Below, one piece after another: positions 6,558-32,279 of a stretch of 37,214 nucleotides of DNA. Source of the stretch: a virus; the IMG/VR virus record IMGVR_UViG_3300044516_000497, positions 1-37,214 of that record, one strand, 5' to 3'. Position numbers and translations under genes: made by a program. The notes beneath the pieces were generated by a model. The model was not told where the DNA came from. It saw only the letters and a program-made list of their open reading frames with translations, and did no database searches. Within the stretch, counting starts at the first letter, position 1. Every line of letters starts with the position of its first letter.

Positions 6558-6658
6558 CCTTATACTAATTAGACTATATATATACAAAGAAGTAAGATTT
6601 CATAAGATGTATTTTTTAAACTCTTACTTCTTTGTATATATATTTAAATATATAAGGG
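6558..6658. repeat. Large AT-rich nested inverted repeat
   Basis: Perfect 22-bp arms (6576-6597 and 6622-6643, core ACAAAGAAGTAAGA) flank a 24-bp AT-rich centre. An outer pair CCCTTATA (6558-6565) and TATAAGGG (6651-6658) lies symmetrically outside. Each half contains TTGTAT then TATAAGGG reading outward, so mirror-image promoter-like elements are present. It could be a cruciform, a divergent control site or an origin element; nothing here decides. Confidence 0.75.
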
Positions 6659-6683
6659 ACCCCAAAAGCTACGCAAGATGACA

Positions 6684-6725
6684 AACTGAAAATAGATCCG
6701 ATATACATATCTATTTTTACCAGTT
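6684..6725. repeat. Second inverted repeat
   Basis: AAAATAGAT (6689-6697) and ATCTATTTT (6709-6717) pair perfectly around an 11-bp loop, and AACTG (6684-6688) with CAGTT (6721-6725) extends the stem past a 3-nt bulge. It follows the larger repeat by about 25 bp at the edge of the compositionally different island. Confidence 0.6.
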
Positions 6726-7435
6726 GCCTCAGAGCTTGTGACATAACGACAGGAAGCGAAAGTGAGAAAATTGGTGGGTTACCTATTGCGATCGCGCGAT
6801 TTCGTTTTCGTTAGGGCCCTCTCTTGTGTGACATAGGGAAATCGATGCATAAGTGAAGGAGGCGGGTATTTACCAGATACGGGCATATTCGCGATCCTAT
6901 AAACCGGGTTAGCTGCAGTAAACCTAGAATGCAGCCGTGGAATTATTACGTTATCTGCAGCATGTATAACGGCCGTTAGTGTACAAATTTAATGATTCTC
7001 ATTTGTTACACCTTGACTGTTAGAATTGACGCTACACGCGAGATTCTAGGCATGCAGGGAATACGGGCGGGTGATAGGCATAACGGGCCCGTACGGGCGA
7101 TATAGCGGGCCGTGCAGCTGCATGCAGTCAAGGATACACGCGGGCATTATGTAAACGTGTAGCTGCATCATGTCAAGGATCGCGGGCATGCAGTCCAGGC
7201 GCGAGATCGATAGCTGCACCTGGTGTGAACCTGGATAACAGGTAGCATGCGGGCCGTACCGTATCCAGGTATCACGGGCGGGCATTATCCAGGTATCGCA
7301 TGCATGCCTAAATTAGGCGGGTTATACCGTGATAGCTGCAGCGGGCCAATATTGGCATAACGGGCCGCGTACGGGCCGCTGTGGAGTCAAGGATCGCATA
7401 CCCGGTTACATGCTGCGGAGAATATCGGCAGGCAT

Positions 7436-7466
7436 AAAAATACCCGCGTGGTATGCGCGGGTTTAA
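7436..7466 (-). terminator. Intrinsic terminator of the small-gene operon
   Basis: On the minus strand ACCCGCG (7462-7456) pairs with CGCGGGT (7448-7442) around a 7-nt loop, followed by ATTTTTAT. It begins about 25 bp after the stop of the cysteine-rich small gene, closing the operon that starts at 8526-8555. Confidence 0.82.
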
Positions 7467-7486
7467 GTGTCTGTTAGGATCGCGTG

Positions 7487-7732
7487 CTAAATGTGCAGTA
7501 TCGCACCACGGCCTAAATGTATAAAATGCCCCTGAATTTGCAGGTCTGATTCTACGTTTTCACATTCTCCGCAGCGAGTATCACCACCGATACAATCCCG
7601 GCAGCGAGTAGTATCAATTACTGCAGCTATCGCCGCGGCCCGTGCGATCCTACTATCGCCATTAGGCGTGTATAGGCGTATGTAGCGGCATGAATTGATT
7701 AAGTCTATCGCCCGCTGAATTTCAGTTTTCAT
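7487..7732 (-). CDS. Small cysteine-rich protein
   Basis: An 81-residue protein from ATG 7732 (MKTEIQRAIDL), chosen because TGGAG lies upstream and the start overlaps the preceding membrane-peptide gene by 11 bp. The helical, alanine-rich first half is followed by CRDCIGGDTRCGEC, a four-cysteine arrangement suited to metal binding, and a tail ending GRGAILHI. No family recognised. It is the last gene of a six-gene operon and the only one there with a likely metal site, so it may be the soluble partner of the membrane peptides. Confidence 0.6.
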   Translation of the reverse strand: MKTEIQRAIDLINSCRYIRLYTPNGDSRIARAAAIAAVIDTTRCRDCIGGDTRCGECENVESDLQIQGHFIHLGRGAILHI

Positions 7733-7832
7733 TTCTAGACTCCAGTAATTCGGCAGCATGCCACAATTCATAGAATGCCACCGCGGTAAATACCGCGATA
7801 GCTGCAACGATAGAACAAAGTAGAATGACCAT
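7722..7832 (-). CDS. Tiny membrane peptide (36 aa)
   Basis: A 36-codon frame beginning MVILLCSIVAAIAVFTAVAF: one N-terminal membrane-spanning segment and then a polar tail (ELWHAAELLESRNEN). The ATG at 7832 shares a base with the stop of the preceding gene (TGATG), and the end overlaps the next gene by 11 bp. Such tight coupling on both sides supports it as a real gene despite its size. Function unknown. Confidence 0.6.
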   Translation of the reverse strand: MVILLCSIVAAIAVFTAVAFYELWHAAELLESRNEN

Positions 7833-8077
7833 CAAAATACCTTAATCCATTTACCAGATACGAAATTCCATTTTTCTACCTGAAATGCTGCTAATTCCGT
7901 TATTTGGAATTTGGCATTTTCCAGCAGATCGACAATTCCAGCGGCCCGCATTTGCTGCGTAATATCATCTCTAATTTGCAGTGCATGCGCGAAATTGTTC
8001 GCGTACCCGGTTGCAGCTGGCTGCAGTAGCGGCGAATTCGCGAGATGAATTATCACGTGTATATTCCCTGATTTCAT
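7832..8077 (-). CDS. Hypothetical small protein
   Basis: An 81-residue protein, MKSGNIHVIIHLANSP at the start and ending VEKWNFVSGKWIKVF, with a helical middle (HALQIRDDITQQMRAAGIVDLL). GGGGAAATT immediately precedes the ATG. No membrane segment and no family recognised. Coupled by a TGATG overlap to the downstream membrane peptide. Confidence 0.6.
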   Translation of the reverse strand: MKSGNIHVIIHLANSPLLQPAATGYANNFAHALQIRDDITQQMRAAGIVDLLENAKFQITELAAFQVEKWNFVSGKWIKVF

Positions 8078-8096
8078 AATTTCCCCATTCCCTACC

Positions 8097-8288
8097 TTAA
8101 AGGTATAACAGACCGATTAAATGACGCACGATCAAAACTGCAGCTACAATGCAGCAACCTTGAATACTTGCGATATAGCCGTAGTAGACTGCACGGCCAG
8201 TATTCACCCTGCGGCGAAATACCAGAAATGCAGCTAAAAACAAAGTCTGCTGCATTATTGCAAATGCGATAATTGTATAACCCGTCAT
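8097..8288 (-). CDS. Small membrane protein (63 aa)
   Basis: Two hydrophobic segments (about residues 5-24, IIAFAIMQQTLFLAAFLVF, and 38-60, YIASIQGCCIVAAVLIV) flank a short basic loop RRRVNTGR, which predicts a hairpin with the loop inside. AAGGGGAAAT lies upstream of the ATG. The size and topology resemble small holins, but nothing else here suggests lysis. Function unknown. Confidence 0.62.
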   Translation of the reverse strand: MTGYTIIAFAIMQQTLFLAAFLVFRRRVNTGRAVYYGYIASIQGCCIVAAVLIVRHLIGLLYL

Positions 8289-8302
8289 TTTTGTATTTCC
8301 CC

Positions 8303-8401
8303 TTAACCCGCTAACGTTGCATCGTTAACGACGATCTCATACATGCCCCATATAAATACCGCGATCGCGATACTAGTAAAAATCCAAAGTGCGATTAACA
8401 T
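8303..8401 (-). CDS. Tiny membrane peptide (32 aa)
   Basis: A 32-codon frame, MLIALWIFTSIAIAVFIW followed by GMYEIVVNDATLAG: one membrane segment with a short outside tail. The ATG directly follows the stop of the upstream peptide gene (TAAATG), suggesting coupled translation. It shares the MLI start and general design with the peptide encoded just before it. Function unknown. Confidence 0.55.
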   Translation of the reverse strand: MLIALWIFTSIAIAVFIWGMYEIVVNDATLAG

Positions 8402-8494
8402 TTACTTGGATCCATTCCACGGGCCGTTAGGGCCCGATACTACGCATAACAACGCGAACAAAAACATGCCTACCAGCGAGATAACAATTAACAT
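8402..8494 (-). CDS. Tiny membrane peptide (30 aa), first gene of the operon
   Basis: A 30-codon frame, MLIVISLVGMFLFALLCVV then SGPNGPWNGSK: one membrane segment and a Gly/Pro/Asn-rich tail. It is the first frame after the promoter at 8526-8555, with GGGTGG about eight bases before the ATG. The tight packing with the following peptide supports it. Function unknown. Confidence 0.55.
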   Translation of the reverse strand: MLIVISLVGMFLFALLCVVSGPNGPWNGSK

Positions 8495-8525
8495 TTGATT
8501 TCCACCCTATCCGGTTTGATGTTTA

Positions 8526-8555
8526 GTTATACAGGCATGTATGCGATTATGTCAA
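8526..8555 (-). promoter_or_regulatory. Sigma70-like promoter P2 of the small-gene operon
   Basis: Minus strand TTGACA (8555-8550) and TATAAC (8531-8526) with an 18-bp spacer. The spacer and the bases after the -10 are largely identical to the promoter at 9987-10016. A palindrome (8555-8584) abuts the -35 box upstream, a position suitable for a regulator or for shielding from read-through. Confidence 0.78.
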
Positions 8556-8588
8556 TACATGCAGTTATTATTGACTGCATGTATTTTT
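8555..8588. repeat. Perfect 11-bp inverted repeat abutting promoter P2
   Basis: ATACATGCAGT (8555-8565) and ACTGCATGTAT (8574-8584) surround an 8-nt loop. On the plus strand it is followed by five T residues, like a terminator, but no plus-strand gene precedes it. On the minus strand there is no T-run, so it may be a weak stop for the operon above, an operator, or both. Confidence 0.65.
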
Positions 8589-8622
8589 ACCCGCGTACCA
8601 GGTTGCATGTATCCAGGTGCAG

Positions 8623-9390
8623 CTACACGGTTTTAAGGTGCAGCATTTTCTTTTTCCCTTGACCGTGCGCAGCAAATACAATCACATTTTTACGCGCGTG
8701 CAATTTGCTATCCTGCATGCATAGGCCGCACGCTTGACAATTGGCGGCCCTGCCGGTTTGCTCAGGACACGGTATACCAGTGTATTCCCCGTCAAGTTTA
8801 TATGCGCGATCGTGCGTGTGCTCAGGTATCACGATAGCAGCAGCAAAACCGGCAGCATGCGCGGCCCGTACCTGCTGCATCGTTTCGCACGATCTCAAAA
8901 CCGATATGCGGCCCCAACTATCGCGGCGTGTATCGCGTGCATGCGTGTAAGTCCAGACGCGTACATTTTTGCCCTTGACTGCACCGCGTGCAATGTATCG
9001 ATCTGCAGCTGCAGATAGAATTTGCGCGGCCTTATTTGTACGCGCGTCCCCGACAACGTGCAGCCGCAGATCGCGGCGACCCGTCAAGGTATCGATACCT
9101 GCAGCCTCAATTAATGCGATAGCTGCAGGTGATAGAGTCGCAAATTCTCGCGCGGCCTTATTTAGGCGGGCCGTAGTAAACCCTGCCATTCCGGATTCCG
9201 CGTAACAACCCGCACCCATATGCGGGCATGACGGAGGGCACGAAATTTGTGCAGTCCAGGTGCATGACACGGGCCCAATTTTATCGTTGTCTGATTTTTC
9301 TACTGCAGCGATCAAATCAGACATTTTCGTACCGTTGCGCGGCAGCATGTCAAGCGATCCTGAATTATTGACTGTTGTTAGAGTTTTCAT
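8623..9390 (-). CDS. GP88-like cysteine-rich phage protein
   Basis: 255 residues from ATG 9390 (MKTLTTVNNSGS), preferred over a TTG at 9414 that lacks a leader. Two cysteine clusters stand out: Cys43, then SCPPSCPHMGAGCYAE at 50-65, and near residue 215 CPEQTGRAANCQACGLC, followed by VIVFAAHG. Between them are RLHVVGD and HTHDRAYK segments. This layout resembles the mycobacteriophage gene-product-88 type phage family; the cysteines suggest an iron-sulfur or zinc site. The biochemical role of that family is not established to my knowledge. It is co-transcribed with the orphan gene above. Confidence 0.6.
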   Translation of the reverse strand: MKTLTTVNNSGSLDMLPRNGTKMSDLIAAVEKSDNDKIGPVSCTWTAQISCPPSCPHMGAGCYAESGMAGFTTARLNKAAREFATLSPAAIALIEAAGIDTLTGRRDLRLHVVGDARTNKAAQILSAAADRYIARGAVKGKNVRVWTYTHARDTRRDSWGRISVLRSCETMQQVRAAHAAGFAAAIVIPEHTHDRAYKLDGEYTGIPCPEQTGRAANCQACGLCMQDSKLHARKNVIVFAAHGQGKKKMLHLKTV

Positions 9391-9416
9391 TTTCCTAATT
9401 TCCCCATATACCAAAG

Positions 9417-9959
9417 TTAAGCGTATTCACCAATTACAATTTCCCCGTAATAAACCCGGAATTTCACCCGGTAATTTTCGGTACCGTTAATTGTTATCTG
9501 CAGCTGCATTTCATTGTCGATATGCAAATGTGCAGCGTCAATGCCTAATTCATAGGCGCGATCGCGTACAAATTCATAATCACCATTTTTGATGTATTCA
9601 AATGCTGCATGCATTTCTTCGATCTCGCGTAATTCGAATTCATCGGCTGCGGAGTAGCAAACCGGTTTAACGCTGCAGTTTTCGTGCATTTCATGCAGGA
9701 TCGCGTCAATAGCATTTTTAACCATGCCGAAAATGTATGTGTGATAAGTATTGACATAATCACCGGCACGAAATGCTAACCTTGACGGGCAAATGTATGC
9801 TGCATCGGTGCAGCTGTTAATATACTTAATCGGTGCAGCATATGAAAACCAATTGTCATATACATGTTGCGTCAAGTCTATACCAGTGCACGCGCCGCAC
9901 TTTACTAATTCACCCGCCAATTCTCTAACATCGGCCCGCTCAAAAATTATAGGTTCCAT
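9417..9959 (-). CDS. Orphan protein with a truncated paralogue at 31106-31393
   Basis: A 180-residue protein starting MEPIIFERADVRELAGELV, with YDNWFSYAAPIKYIN, CTDAAYICPSRLA and YVNTYHTYIFGMVKNAIDAIL in the first 95 residues. These are matched closely by a 95-residue protein in the late region. The remaining 85 residues (acidic helical part, then a beta-rich end) are unique. GGAGG precedes the ATG. I recognise no family. It heads the two-gene operon driven by promoter P1. Confidence 0.65.
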   Translation of the reverse strand: MEPIIFERADVRELAGELVKCGACTGIDLTQHVYDNWFSYAAPIKYINSCTDAAYICPSRLAFRAGDYVNTYHTYIFGMVKNAIDAILHEMHENCSVKPVCYSAADEFELREIEEMHAAFEYIKNGDYEFVRDRAYELGIDAAHLHIDNEMQLQITINGTENYRVKFRVYYGEIVIGEYA

Positions 9960-9986
9960 TTAATACCTCCGCTGTTTTGATGCTGC

Positions 9987-10016
9987 GTTATATAGGCATG
10001 TTCGCGAATATGTCAA
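9987..10016 (-). promoter_or_regulatory. Sigma70-like promoter P1 of the orphan/GP88-like operon
   Basis: Minus strand TTGACA (10016-10011), 18-bp spacer, TATAAC (9992-9987), about 30 bp before the orphan start codon. The spacer contains TTCGCGAA. Same boxes and spacer length as P2 at 8526-8555. Confidence 0.8.
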
Positions 10017-10020
10017 GCGA

Positions 10021-10568
10021 GATAGAAAAAATAAGGTTGTTAACAGAATTTGCGCGTGATTTACTCGCGTCATGCATACCTATAAATTGCGGCCGCATAT
10101 CCTAAATTCACGCGTACCCGGTTGCATGCTGCCGGCATTTCTAACCCGCGCGGGCGATCAATATGCGCCGCTACATCTGCAGCTGCACCACGGGCCGCTA
10201 TACCTGCAACCTGGATACCTGCAACCTGGATACCTGGATCGCTGCAGCTGCACCACGGCCCGTTATATCTGCGGCATGTATCGCTGCATTATCGCTGCAG
10301 ATCCCGACAAAAACGGCCTAGGGATCCCAGATAAAAACCCCTCGCGGACGCGCCAGCGCACATGCACGCACACAATGCGACGCAGATGTAGAAGCGATCA
10401 CACATCCCAGCACACACACATACATACACACACACAACACATACACGCCGGGAATGTTTTACGTATCCCTCTGGCCCGCGAGGGAGCTCAGAGCGGCTCC
10501 CGTGTATTGCGATCGTTGCCTATCCTGGCGCCTCGGTTGCTCCCATTCGTCCGTTTTGCAGATATAGA
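10021..10568. other. Non-coding, repeat-rich right flank of the island
   Basis: About 550 bp without a supportable gene. It carries direct repeats (10177-10258), GC-rich palindromic words as in 6780-7435, a CA-rich microsatellite around 10398-10446 and a hairpin GGGAGC...GCTCCC near 10488-10503. The long plus-strand frame from 10072 crosses the microsatellite and a terminator and runs antisense to a real gene, so I treat it as accidental. Confidence 0.6.
10177..10258. repeat. Direct and tandem repeats
   Basis: The 17-mer CTGCAGCTGCACCACGG occurs at 10177-10193 and 10242-10258. Between them the 15-mer TACCTGCAACCTGGA is tandemly repeated at 10201-10215 and 10216-10230, with a partial third unit. 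Their words also occur in the left flank (around 7200-7300). Confidence 0.8.
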
Positions 10569-10608
10569 CAAAAGGAAAAGCACGGCGGGCCAATTGCCTA
10601 CCGTGCTC
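10569..10608 (-). terminator. Intrinsic terminator of the replication operon
   Basis: On the minus strand AGCACGG (10607-10601) pairs with CCGTGCT (10585-10579). A further GGC/GCC pair lies inside, and TTTTCCTTTT follows. It lies about 70 bp after the last gene of the operon (zinc-ribbon protein). Another 7-bp hairpin, GCGTACG/CGTACGC, lies just before it at 10619-10643. Confidence 0.82.
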
Positions 10609-10650
10609 TGTGTGTGTTGCGTACGCTCACTATGTACGTACGCGCGCCTC

Positions 10651-10668
10651 CGTCCGTCCGTCCGTCCC
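10651..10668. repeat. CGTC tetranucleotide repeat, copy 1
   Basis: Four tandem CGTC units followed by CC just beyond the 3' end of the zinc-ribbon gene. A 14-bp identical copy lies on the other side of that gene at 11279-11292. Confidence 0.7.
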
Positions 10669-10676
10669 TTTTCTTT

Positions 10677-11165
10677 TTACTGCTGCATCCAAGTTTCTGC
10701 ATGCTCACAGTTTGCTATGAACCTACTCCATTCAGGCGGACAGGATCTACTAAACAAGGTAGTAACACGTTCACGGCGACCAGCTATTGGTGATTCAGCT
10801 TCCATATCCTCTGGAAGGATGTGCCATGAATCGATGGCCATGTCTGTGATACCGATGTGCTTCTCTTCCAGATTCCCGGTGTTGTCATCGGCGGCCAGAG
10901 TAACCAACCGAGCACGATCAAAGTACATGTACATCGGTGCGCGGCCCGTCGGGATAACAGAGTATCGAACCAGGATGGATCCTGACCACATCTTGCCCAT
11001 TCCACTAAAGAATGTCTCACGACCCGCATCCTGAAGCAACGCCTTGAGCTTCTCGTCATACGTGACAGGTTCTGGGTCACGATGTGGCTGCAATAACATG
11101 CACTCGATACACGTCCCGCTATACAGCTGTGATGCTGGAATTCCGCACTTAGAACACTTTTCCAT
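10677..11165 (-). CDS. Zinc-ribbon hypothetical protein
   Basis: 162 residues from ATG 11165, which has AGAGGG seven bases upstream; the longer frame to 11297 would translate the CGTC repeat. The N-terminus MEKCSKCGIPASQLYSGTC then IEC is a CxxC...CxxC zinc ribbon. The rest (MWSGSILVRYSV, MYMYFDRARLVTLAADD, SWHILPEDME) is unfamiliar. Last gene of the replication operon, separated from the previous gene by 160 bp and bracketed by CGTC repeats, so it may be a later addition. Confidence 0.68.
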   Translation of the reverse strand: MEKCSKCGIPASQLYSGTCIECMLLQPHRDPEPVTYDEKLKALLQDAGRETFFSGMGKMWSGSILVRYSVIPTGRAPMYMYFDRARLVTLAADDNTGNLEEKHIGITDMAIDSWHILPEDMEAESPIAGRRERVTTLFSRSCPPEWSRFIANCEHAETWMQQ

Positions 11166-30882: not shown

Positions 30883-31109
30883 TATTCAGCGGTTCCTGAA
30901 AGAATTTCTTCAGCCATAACGTACATAAATTGATTTACAATATTTAGCCTGAACGCCTCATCTTGCTGTACCCACCAAGTAAATACATCAATCCCGTCAG
31001 GCCCAAAGTCAGCAACTTTGACAAAGTCATCATTTAGGATGTCGGCTTTGATGTTGTAGTCTGCTGGGTTTGTAACAAGTGGTGTAACAACTACATTGTT
31101 TAGGTTCAT
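30882..31109 (-). CDS. Small hypothetical protein
   Basis: 75 residues, MNLNNVVVTPLVTNPADYNI at the start, with GIDVFTWWVQQDEAFRLNIV and an acidic end. No family recognised. It overlaps the orphan paralogue by 4 bp and touches the spike start, so it may assist spike folding or attachment. Confidence 0.58.
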   Translation of the reverse strand: MNLNNVVVTPLVTNPADYNIKADILNDDFVKVADFGPDGIDVFTWWVQQDEAFRLNIVNQFMYVMAEEILSGTAE

Positions 31110-31393
31110 TTACTTACCTCCATTGCCTCCAAAATTGTGTCAATCGCTTTTTTCACCAAGTCAAAAAAGTAAGTGTGGTAACGGTTAACATAATCTTCCC
31201 CACCAACTGCCAGATGTGACGGACAGATGTAGGCTGCATCAGTGCAGCCGTTAACATACTCAATCGGTGCGGCATACCACCACCAATTGTCGTATACATA
31301 TTGCACTAAGTCTATGTCAGTGGATGCCCTGTACCTAACTAATTCGCTTGCCAATTCTCTGACATCGGCCCGCTCAAAAATGATATGTTCCAT
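31106..31393 (-). CDS. Truncated paralogue of the island orphan protein
   Basis: 95 residues, closely related over nearly its full length to the first 95 residues of the protein at 9417-9959: FERADVRELA-ELV, YDNW--YAAPI-Y, CTDAAYICPS and YHTY are shared. The C-terminal half of the longer protein is missing. The homology extends upstream of the start codon into a decayed promoter-like segment. Function unknown. Confidence 0.65.
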   Translation of the reverse strand: MEHIIFERADVRELASELVRYRASTDIDLVQYVYDNWWWYAAPIEYVNGCTDAAYICPSHLAVGGEDYVNRYHTYFFDLVKKAIDTILEAMEVSK

Positions 31394-31472
31394 CCGATAC
31401 CTCCACTTTGCTGATGTCCGATTGTAATTCTATAGGCGCGAATCTGTCAATGCGGTAGTTTTGGAGGTTCAT
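31374..31472 (-). CDS. Possible 32-aa peptide
   Basis: A 32-codon frame (MNLQNYRIDRFAPIELQSDI at the start) whose ATG overlaps the stop of the holin-like gene by 4 bp (ATGA) and whose end overlaps the next gene by 20 bp. This coupling is the pattern of neighbouring real genes, but the frame covers a segment homologous to the promoter at 9987, so it may be accidental. Confidence 0.3.
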   Translation of the reverse strand: MNLQNYRIDRFAPIELQSDISKVEVSDGTYHF

Positions 31473-31723
31473 TTGCCCACCTTCAAACTGTTCGCATTCG
31501 TACCCTTGAACGGCATCGTGAGGAACGCCAGCACACTACTCACCGCAGCGGAGACACCAGCCGCTACCGCCTTGCTTCCGTAGAGTGCCAGCACTGCGCC
31601 GAGCTCGCTGATGTCGTGAGCTTCGGATGTCCTGACCCCATCGCCGAAAACGGAAGTGAATGCAGCTGTAAAAGCCACGATCACAACGACCACTAAACGC
31701 TTAATACTGATCTGTAAATTCAT
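31469..31723 (-). CDS. Holin-like membrane protein
   Basis: 84 residues with two membrane segments (RLVVVVIVAFTAAFTSVF and AVAAGVSAAVSSVLAFL) and a basic C-terminus. Third of three consecutive small membrane proteins, overlapping its upstream neighbour by 4 bp. The two-segment design fits class II holins, though no endolysin is nearby. Confidence 0.6.
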   Translation of the reverse strand: MNLQISIKRLVVVVIVAFTAAFTSVFGDGVRTSEAHDISELGAVLALYGSKAVAAGVSAAVSSVLAFLTMPFKGTNANSLKVGK

Positions 31724-31947
31724 CTTGTGTTCATACGCCCTTCGATGTTTGACACTCGGCTCTCAACTTTACCAAGCCGTGTTTCCATCTTTGCTGTATC
31801 TGACTTTATCTCTTGTGTGTCTCTACGCATATGACTTAGCTGTTCATCCATACGGGCAAATCCCATTGCAGCTTGCACGCCTGTCAACAAGATCGGAATC
31901 ATTAACGCCAACACCGCCACAATCAAATGCCAAACTTCAATAGTCAT
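31720..31947 (-). CDS. Membrane-anchored coiled-coil protein (XhlA-like)
   Basis: 75 residues: an N-terminal membrane segment (HLIVAVLALMIPILLTG) and a C-terminal coiled coil (LSHMRRDTQEIKSDTAKM, ETRLGKVESRVSNIEGRM). This is the layout of XhlA/Bhl-type proteins, which cooperate with holins in lysis, here in reversed order. Overlaps both neighbours by 4 bp. Confidence 0.62.
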   Translation of the reverse strand: MTIEVWHLIVAVLALMIPILLTGVQAAMGFARMDEQLSHMRRDTQEIKSDTAKMETRLGKVESRVSNIEGRMNTR

Positions 31948-32279
31948 TGAACGTCCTTCCCCGCCGCCGTGTACCGGGAGAGTATCTGTGTCTCAATATC
32001 TTTACGCAGTTGTGTTTCTACTTCCGTAGTTACATCTCTTTTGAATGCAGGAAGGTTAGCGTCTTGTCGAATAAAGAATGCGATCATCGCCGTAATAACA
32101 GCAGGTACACCTGCTCTCAATGCCTCAATGCTTGCAATACTAGCCACCTTGGCTACATGACCAAACGTGCTGTTATCGCTAATAGGCATGTTTTCCCATG
32201 CCGCATTGAACGCAGGTAGAGCAGAAGCAAAGAAAGCCCCAACAATAACCCACCACAATCTACCGTAGGCGATGTTCAT
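31944..32279 (-). CDS. Holin-like membrane protein
   Basis: 111 residues with two membrane segments (LWWVIVGAFFASALPAF near residue 9, GVPAVITAMIAFFI near residue 60) and a charged C-terminus (FKRDVTTEVETQLRKDIETQ). First of three membrane genes directly after the head-closure gene, overlapping it by 4 bp. Holin role by topology and context. Confidence 0.6.
   Translation of the reverse strand: MNIAYGRLWWVIVGAFFASALPAFNAAWENMPISDNSTFGHVAKVASIASIEALRAGVPAVITAMIAFFIRQDANLPAFKRDVTTEVETQLRKDIETQILSRYTAAGKDVQ

Follow-up and report, generated by a model that had tools for sequence, protein, structure and literature searches.

Is a run of six very small genes in an uncultured phage a real operon, and if so, what might it do? 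The question arises at positions 7436-8588 of the stretch of DNA analyzed here (hereafter the window), a 37.2-kb IMG/VR phage fragment from an uncultured virus of bacteria. The right end of the window carries portal, protease, and capsid genes, and the left end carries recombination, methylation, and nucleotide genes.

Anatomy of the six-gene operon

The minus-strand unit runs from a promoter, P2 (8555-8526), through six ATG-started frames of 30, 32, 63, 81, 36, and 81 aa to an intrinsic terminator (7462-7442). All of these elements had been proposed in an earlier note on this DNA, and each was recovered in place: the promoter at exactly those positions as a sigma70-type TTGACA-18-TATAAC with 11 of 12 consensus bases, all six frames, and a terminator hairpin (stem ACCCGCG/CGCGGGT, RNA z-score -3.1) followed by ATTTTT. 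The frames occupy 975 of 1,008 bases, an ORF coverage that was matched by none of 2,000 dinucleotide resamplings, and the junctions are as tight as had been claimed (i.e., TAAATG, TGATG, and an 11-bp overlap at 7732-7722).

The same note had described four membrane products, and we indeed found hydrophobic segments in four of the six. The orf30 product (8494-8402) has one membrane segment and a C-terminal GPxGPW-like motif, that of orf32 (8401-8303) also has a single segment, that of orf63 (8288-8097) has two segments with an RRRVNTGR loop between them, and that of orf36 (7832-7722) combines one segment with a charged C-terminal tail. The remaining two products are soluble, namely orf81a (8077-7832), for which a beta-beta-alpha-beta-beta-beta fold is predicted, and orf81b (7732-7487), whose CxxC-x6-CxxC site (C44-x2-C47-x6-C54-x2-C57) is the paired cysteine motif that had been noticed earlier; all four cysteines are retained in two relatives. 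The further description of the unit as self-contained holds for its own promoter and terminator, but only in part, since the operon headed by the upstream promoter P1 reads toward it and a consensus scan revealed no minus-strand terminator between the two. Past the terminator, the stretch 7046-7440 is non-coding and contains many recurring short words (CCTTGAC, CCTGGATA, GGCCCG, and TGCAGC).

Conservation and selection among relatives

Searches based partly on the operon genes and a neighboring gene located the locus in nine IMG/VR contigs, all of them uncultured and probably incomplete records: eight that are non-identical to the window, and L003, which is essentially identical to it (99.99%). 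Two of the contigs, L018 and L019, are nearly the same across the six-gene operon. The locus always follows the gp88/DUF7227 gene and, wherever the contig reaches, precedes the same DNA methyltransferase gene.

The trio of orf63, orf81a, and orf36 was present in all relatives and thus constitutes the conserved core, whereas the first genes of the operon (30, 32, 31, or 132 aa) are swapped between relatives. More specifically, orf32 occurs in the window and in six contigs besides the identical L003 (L007, L008, L010, L011, L018, and L019), and orf30 occurs in the window, L008, L010, and L018/L019. L009 encodes a 132-aa membrane ORF instead of both, and L008 has an additional 31-aa membrane ORF. 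The last gene, orf81b, was found in the window, L009, and L018/L019.

For each of the six frames, one or more pairs of relatives show purifying selection. As pairwise counts on very short frames, quoted for the best informative pairs with uncorrected p-values, the pN/pS ratios are 0.09 for orf81a (p = 1.4e-6), 0.13 for orf81b (p = 2e-15, pair L009/L019), 0.15 for orf63 (p = 6e-6, with 0.12-0.15 across close pairs), down to 0.20 for orf32 (p = 4e-7), and 0.42 for orf30 (p = 0.001). The best pair for orf36 yielded 0.18 (p = 0.013) and several other pairs were not significant, which points to weaker selection on this frame. The earlier note had named disrupted frames or a lack of purifying selection in related phages as evidence that would speak against it, and our comparison of the relatives turned up neither.

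The gene junctions are also conserved, along with the promoter, leader, and terminator. In each of the eight sequences compared, orf36 starts no more than 2 nt from where orf81a stops, a spacing that suggests translational coupling of the two genes.

Promoters, leader, and inverted repeat

P2 is conserved in all eight sequences compared and belongs to a family-specific promoter pattern, although a consensus scan that requires T as the final base of the -10 box passes over it (TATAAC). Directly past this box lies the leader CATCAAAC (8521-8514), invariant in eight of eight sequences. Matches to 11 of 12 consensus bases occur in the window only at P2 and at two further sites: P1 (10016-9987, minus strand), a sister of P2 that stands upstream of orf180-DUF7227 and is conserved in relatives, and P3 (31450), a third copy, which stands ahead of a short paralogue (95 aa) of orf180. 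Judged by their consensus match, P1 and P2 probably rank in the top three of this phage's sigma70-type promoters for strength. The paralogue itself (31106-31450, matching the N-terminal 95 aa of orf180) is located under its own P3 promoter in the late region, near holin-like genes.

An inverted repeat with 12-bp perfect arms (AATACATGCAGT/ACTGCATGTATT, 8554-8585) overlaps the P2 -35 box, and an A-run (8588-8584) lies beside its left arm. Among the eight sequences, seven have a perfect repeat of 9-14 bp and an A-run abutting or straddling the -35 box, and L015 has a repeat of 7 bp. The sequence of the repeat varies between phages and its pairing is retained. Read on the plus strand, it is intrinsic-terminator-like (RNA z-score of -6.2 in the window and of -6.2 to -1.5 overall), so that it may be a plus-strand terminator-like hairpin or, conceivably, an operator. 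A small putative HTH-type regulator is encoded at 12079-11852, with a promoter (TTGACA-17-TAATAT, 12141) conserved in all seven records; the idea that the P2 repeat is its operator was dropped, as the regulator's promoter bears a different repeat-like sequence in relatives (compared by eye). At the position of the operon terminator, the relatives compared also have a hairpin followed by a T-run.

A two-operon island with its own nucleotide signature

The six-gene operon forms the second half of an island with two promoters, i.e., P1-orf180-DUF7227 followed by P2 and the six genes. Within the P1 operon, the first gene, orf180 (9959-9417, minus strand), has no family match and a pN/pS of 0.15, and the second (9390-8623, minus strand) encodes a 255-aa protein of the DUF7227/GP88 family (PF23872, 1.8e-23; PF17338, 2.6e-6).

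The minus-strand operons of the island (~7046-10340) share a dinucleotide signature unlike that of the rest of the phage, with a delta* of 0.24, a value that in other segments of 3.3 kb does not exceed 0.093. AG/CT is depleted (rho of 0.66 vs 0.96) and GAAG/CTTC was found once, while CGCG, GGCC, TGCA, and CTGCAG are enriched, and the island is also rich in GCATGC. In each of the seven large records, the island has this signature and sits at the same place (mean island-to-island distance of 0.066). Some of these phages have diverged so far that their synonymous sites are nearly saturated, and a signature shared over such distances has either been maintained or been renewed repeatedly. A cyanobacterial origin of this composition was unsupported by the few sequences compared, among which Pseudanabaena phage Pam1 was the nearest (distance of 0.16) and a Synechococcus phage and Synechocystis pSYSA were far. 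One might go further and postulate that the island is a dedicated early-expression segment, that its signature has been actively maintained over long divergence, and that its six microproteins assemble into a single membrane complex unlike any described so far; we regard this as improbable.

Several features were observed in the flanks. The stretch 10340-10700 is rich in GGAC and TG/CA repeats and, on the minus strand, has a strong terminator hairpin (~10607-10570), apparently the end of an upstream operon. Between the six-gene operon and the methyltransferase gene, an inverted repeat with arms of ~21 bp (6572-6645) persists in seven sequences, four of its pairs showing compensatory changes; its Rfam hits were chance miRNA matches only. 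A tiny ORF at 6616-6744 encodes a lipobox-like LSSC, and relatives have a similar stretch (MSQ...LSSCV) with differing ends; it could encode a peptide or belong to a leader RNA.

Homology and structure searches

Searches of Pfam, PHROGs, NCBIfam, and PADLOC gave no credible match for any of the six products, in agreement with the earlier remark that nothing here matches known lysis, exclusion, or anti-defense cassettes by sequence. The PADLOC defense profiles gave no match at E 0.1, and the annotated superinfection-exclusion families in PHROGs and Pfam gave none at E up to 1. Profiles of orf32, orf36, orf63, and orf81a searched against PDB sequences found no credible solved structure, and nothing exceeded the gathering scores of Rfam. 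Outside the lineage, no credible relative was found in GenBank phages (tblastn with orf81a and orf63), in plasmids (tblastn with orf81a), in bacterial-genome contigs (orf81a alignment and promoter pattern searches), or among 74 loci that were searched with operon profiles and that, with few exceptions, surround distant DUF7227 genes. The DUF7227 gene was found in many phages without the six-gene operon travelling along, and literature searches found no description of the operon. Across these collections, then, the operon appears restricted to one narrow phage lineage. The earlier proposal of an undescribed system stands insofar as this is a conserved operon absent from the searched libraries; it needs amending in that the operon is one half of a two-operon island, exchanges its first genes between relatives, and belongs to a single narrow lineage.

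AlphaFold2 models indicate confident folds for orf81a (pLDDT 86.6, pTM 0.76) and orf81b (pLDDT 81.4), and no confident structural relative was found for either. The orf81a model resembles small uncharacterized phage proteins with a Foldseek probability of up to 1.00, but with an E of 0.03 and a TM of ~0.6. Its likeness to the ERH, Cas2, and AcrIF9 folds is weak (Z of 4-5.6, within the tool's stated background). Neither resemblance was read as a pointer to function, and the search with orf81b returned nothing over Z 3.2. Known takeover, exclusion, and anti-defense proteins thus showed no sequence match and no confident fold match to the operon products.

What the operon may do

We postulate, with a probability of roughly 40%, that the six genes serve to modify the host early in infection, through an action at the cell membrane. 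Once the phage DNA is inside, P1 and P2 would be used by host RNA polymerase (an early timing that we deduce from the promoter type), and P2 would give rise to a single mRNA from which translational coupling would yield four inner-membrane micropeptides and the soluble orf81a and orf81b. The micropeptides would insert into the cytoplasmic membrane, where they may alter membrane-bound host functions together with orf81a, the conserved soluble partner whose gene lies among theirs; candidate effects are host takeover, blocking the DNA entry of competing phages, or disabling a membrane-linked defense. This proposal draws on the conserved order of and purifying selection on the six frames, on the hydrophobic segments in four of the six products, and on a sigma70-type P2 with an invariant leader in a window where 11/12 matches are confined to P1, P2, and P3. 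Variable first genes beside a constant trio would also fit an adapting set of host-interaction genes. The restriction of the operon to one lineage makes some other, lineage-specific role just as possible.

In anatomy, the operon resembles early takeover modules, such as that of SPO1, in which 26 clustered and mostly small genes with the promoters and ribosome sites of highly expressed genes act on host processes (PMC6873191). Our small genes are clustered too and have strong promoters and ribosome sites; the likeness is one of anatomy, and most of the products here, in contrast, are predicted membrane peptides. T4 Imm is, by topology, a membrane protein. The small T4 proteins Imm and Sp bring about superinfection exclusion: acting at the envelope, they block the entry of DNA (PMC11436027). 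The operon products are also small phage proteins that may act at the envelope, but they have no PHROG or Pfam match and come from six genes that include soluble partners.

Holins and antiholins are typically small membrane proteins with one or two segments, and holin-antiholin-spanin cassettes, like our operon, place very small proteins of this kind in one operon. The orf63 product or the single-segment peptides could therefore be holin, antiholin, or spanin partners encoded away from the endolysin gene, and lysis genes in these phages are scattered, with a CHAP endolysin encoded far from the operon in relatives. We nevertheless consider auxiliary lysis genes unlikely: no endolysin lies in or beside the operon, its products match no lysis-family profile in PHROGs, Pfam, or NCBIfam (holin families being very diverse), and two conserved soluble products would be left unexplained. 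The late region (31469-32279) encodes other membrane proteins that look holin-like from their hydrophobic segments, though none matched a family. With the CHAP endolysin and these genes located elsewhere, the operon is probably not the main lysis cassette and would be free for another role. Tiny subunits of respiratory and photosynthetic complexes are comparable in size to the single-segment peptides and also span the membrane once, so that the peptides might mimic them and adjust such complexes during infection. For the CHAP endolysin and the capsid protein, the best GenBank matches come from cyanophages, which would suit this idea; the best terminase match is not a cyanophage, which speaks against it, and neither Pfam and NCBIfam nor the PDB-sequence searches with orf32, orf36, and orf63 profiles gave a credible match. 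We consider such bioenergetic tuning very improbable.

The operon might also have come from elsewhere, as a moron-like cassette that this lineage carries as a passenger and that is useful mainly outside the lytic cycle. Phage morons, too, have their own promoter and terminator and an unusual composition, and the nucleotide signature here is strikingly different. A recent passenger, however, is expected to be patchy and ameliorating, and morons are sporadic, whereas this multigene operon, under long-term selection, keeps its site and signature in every relative found (partly via the operon genes and their neighbor), even near synonymous saturation. In addition, a search of seven records for tyrosine and serine integrases, run with positive controls, found none. 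A passenger origin is accordingly as doubtful, in our estimate, as an auxiliary role in lysis.

Significance

Tiny phage membrane proteins are mostly unannotated, as their reality cannot be demonstrated from single genomes. Here, the evidence from conservation, selection, promoter, and terminator agrees, and it delivers six protein families without known relatives as a compact, testable set. The stable compositional boundary of the island is also unusual: why should a single segment of a phage genome follow nucleotide rules that differ from those elsewhere in the genome?
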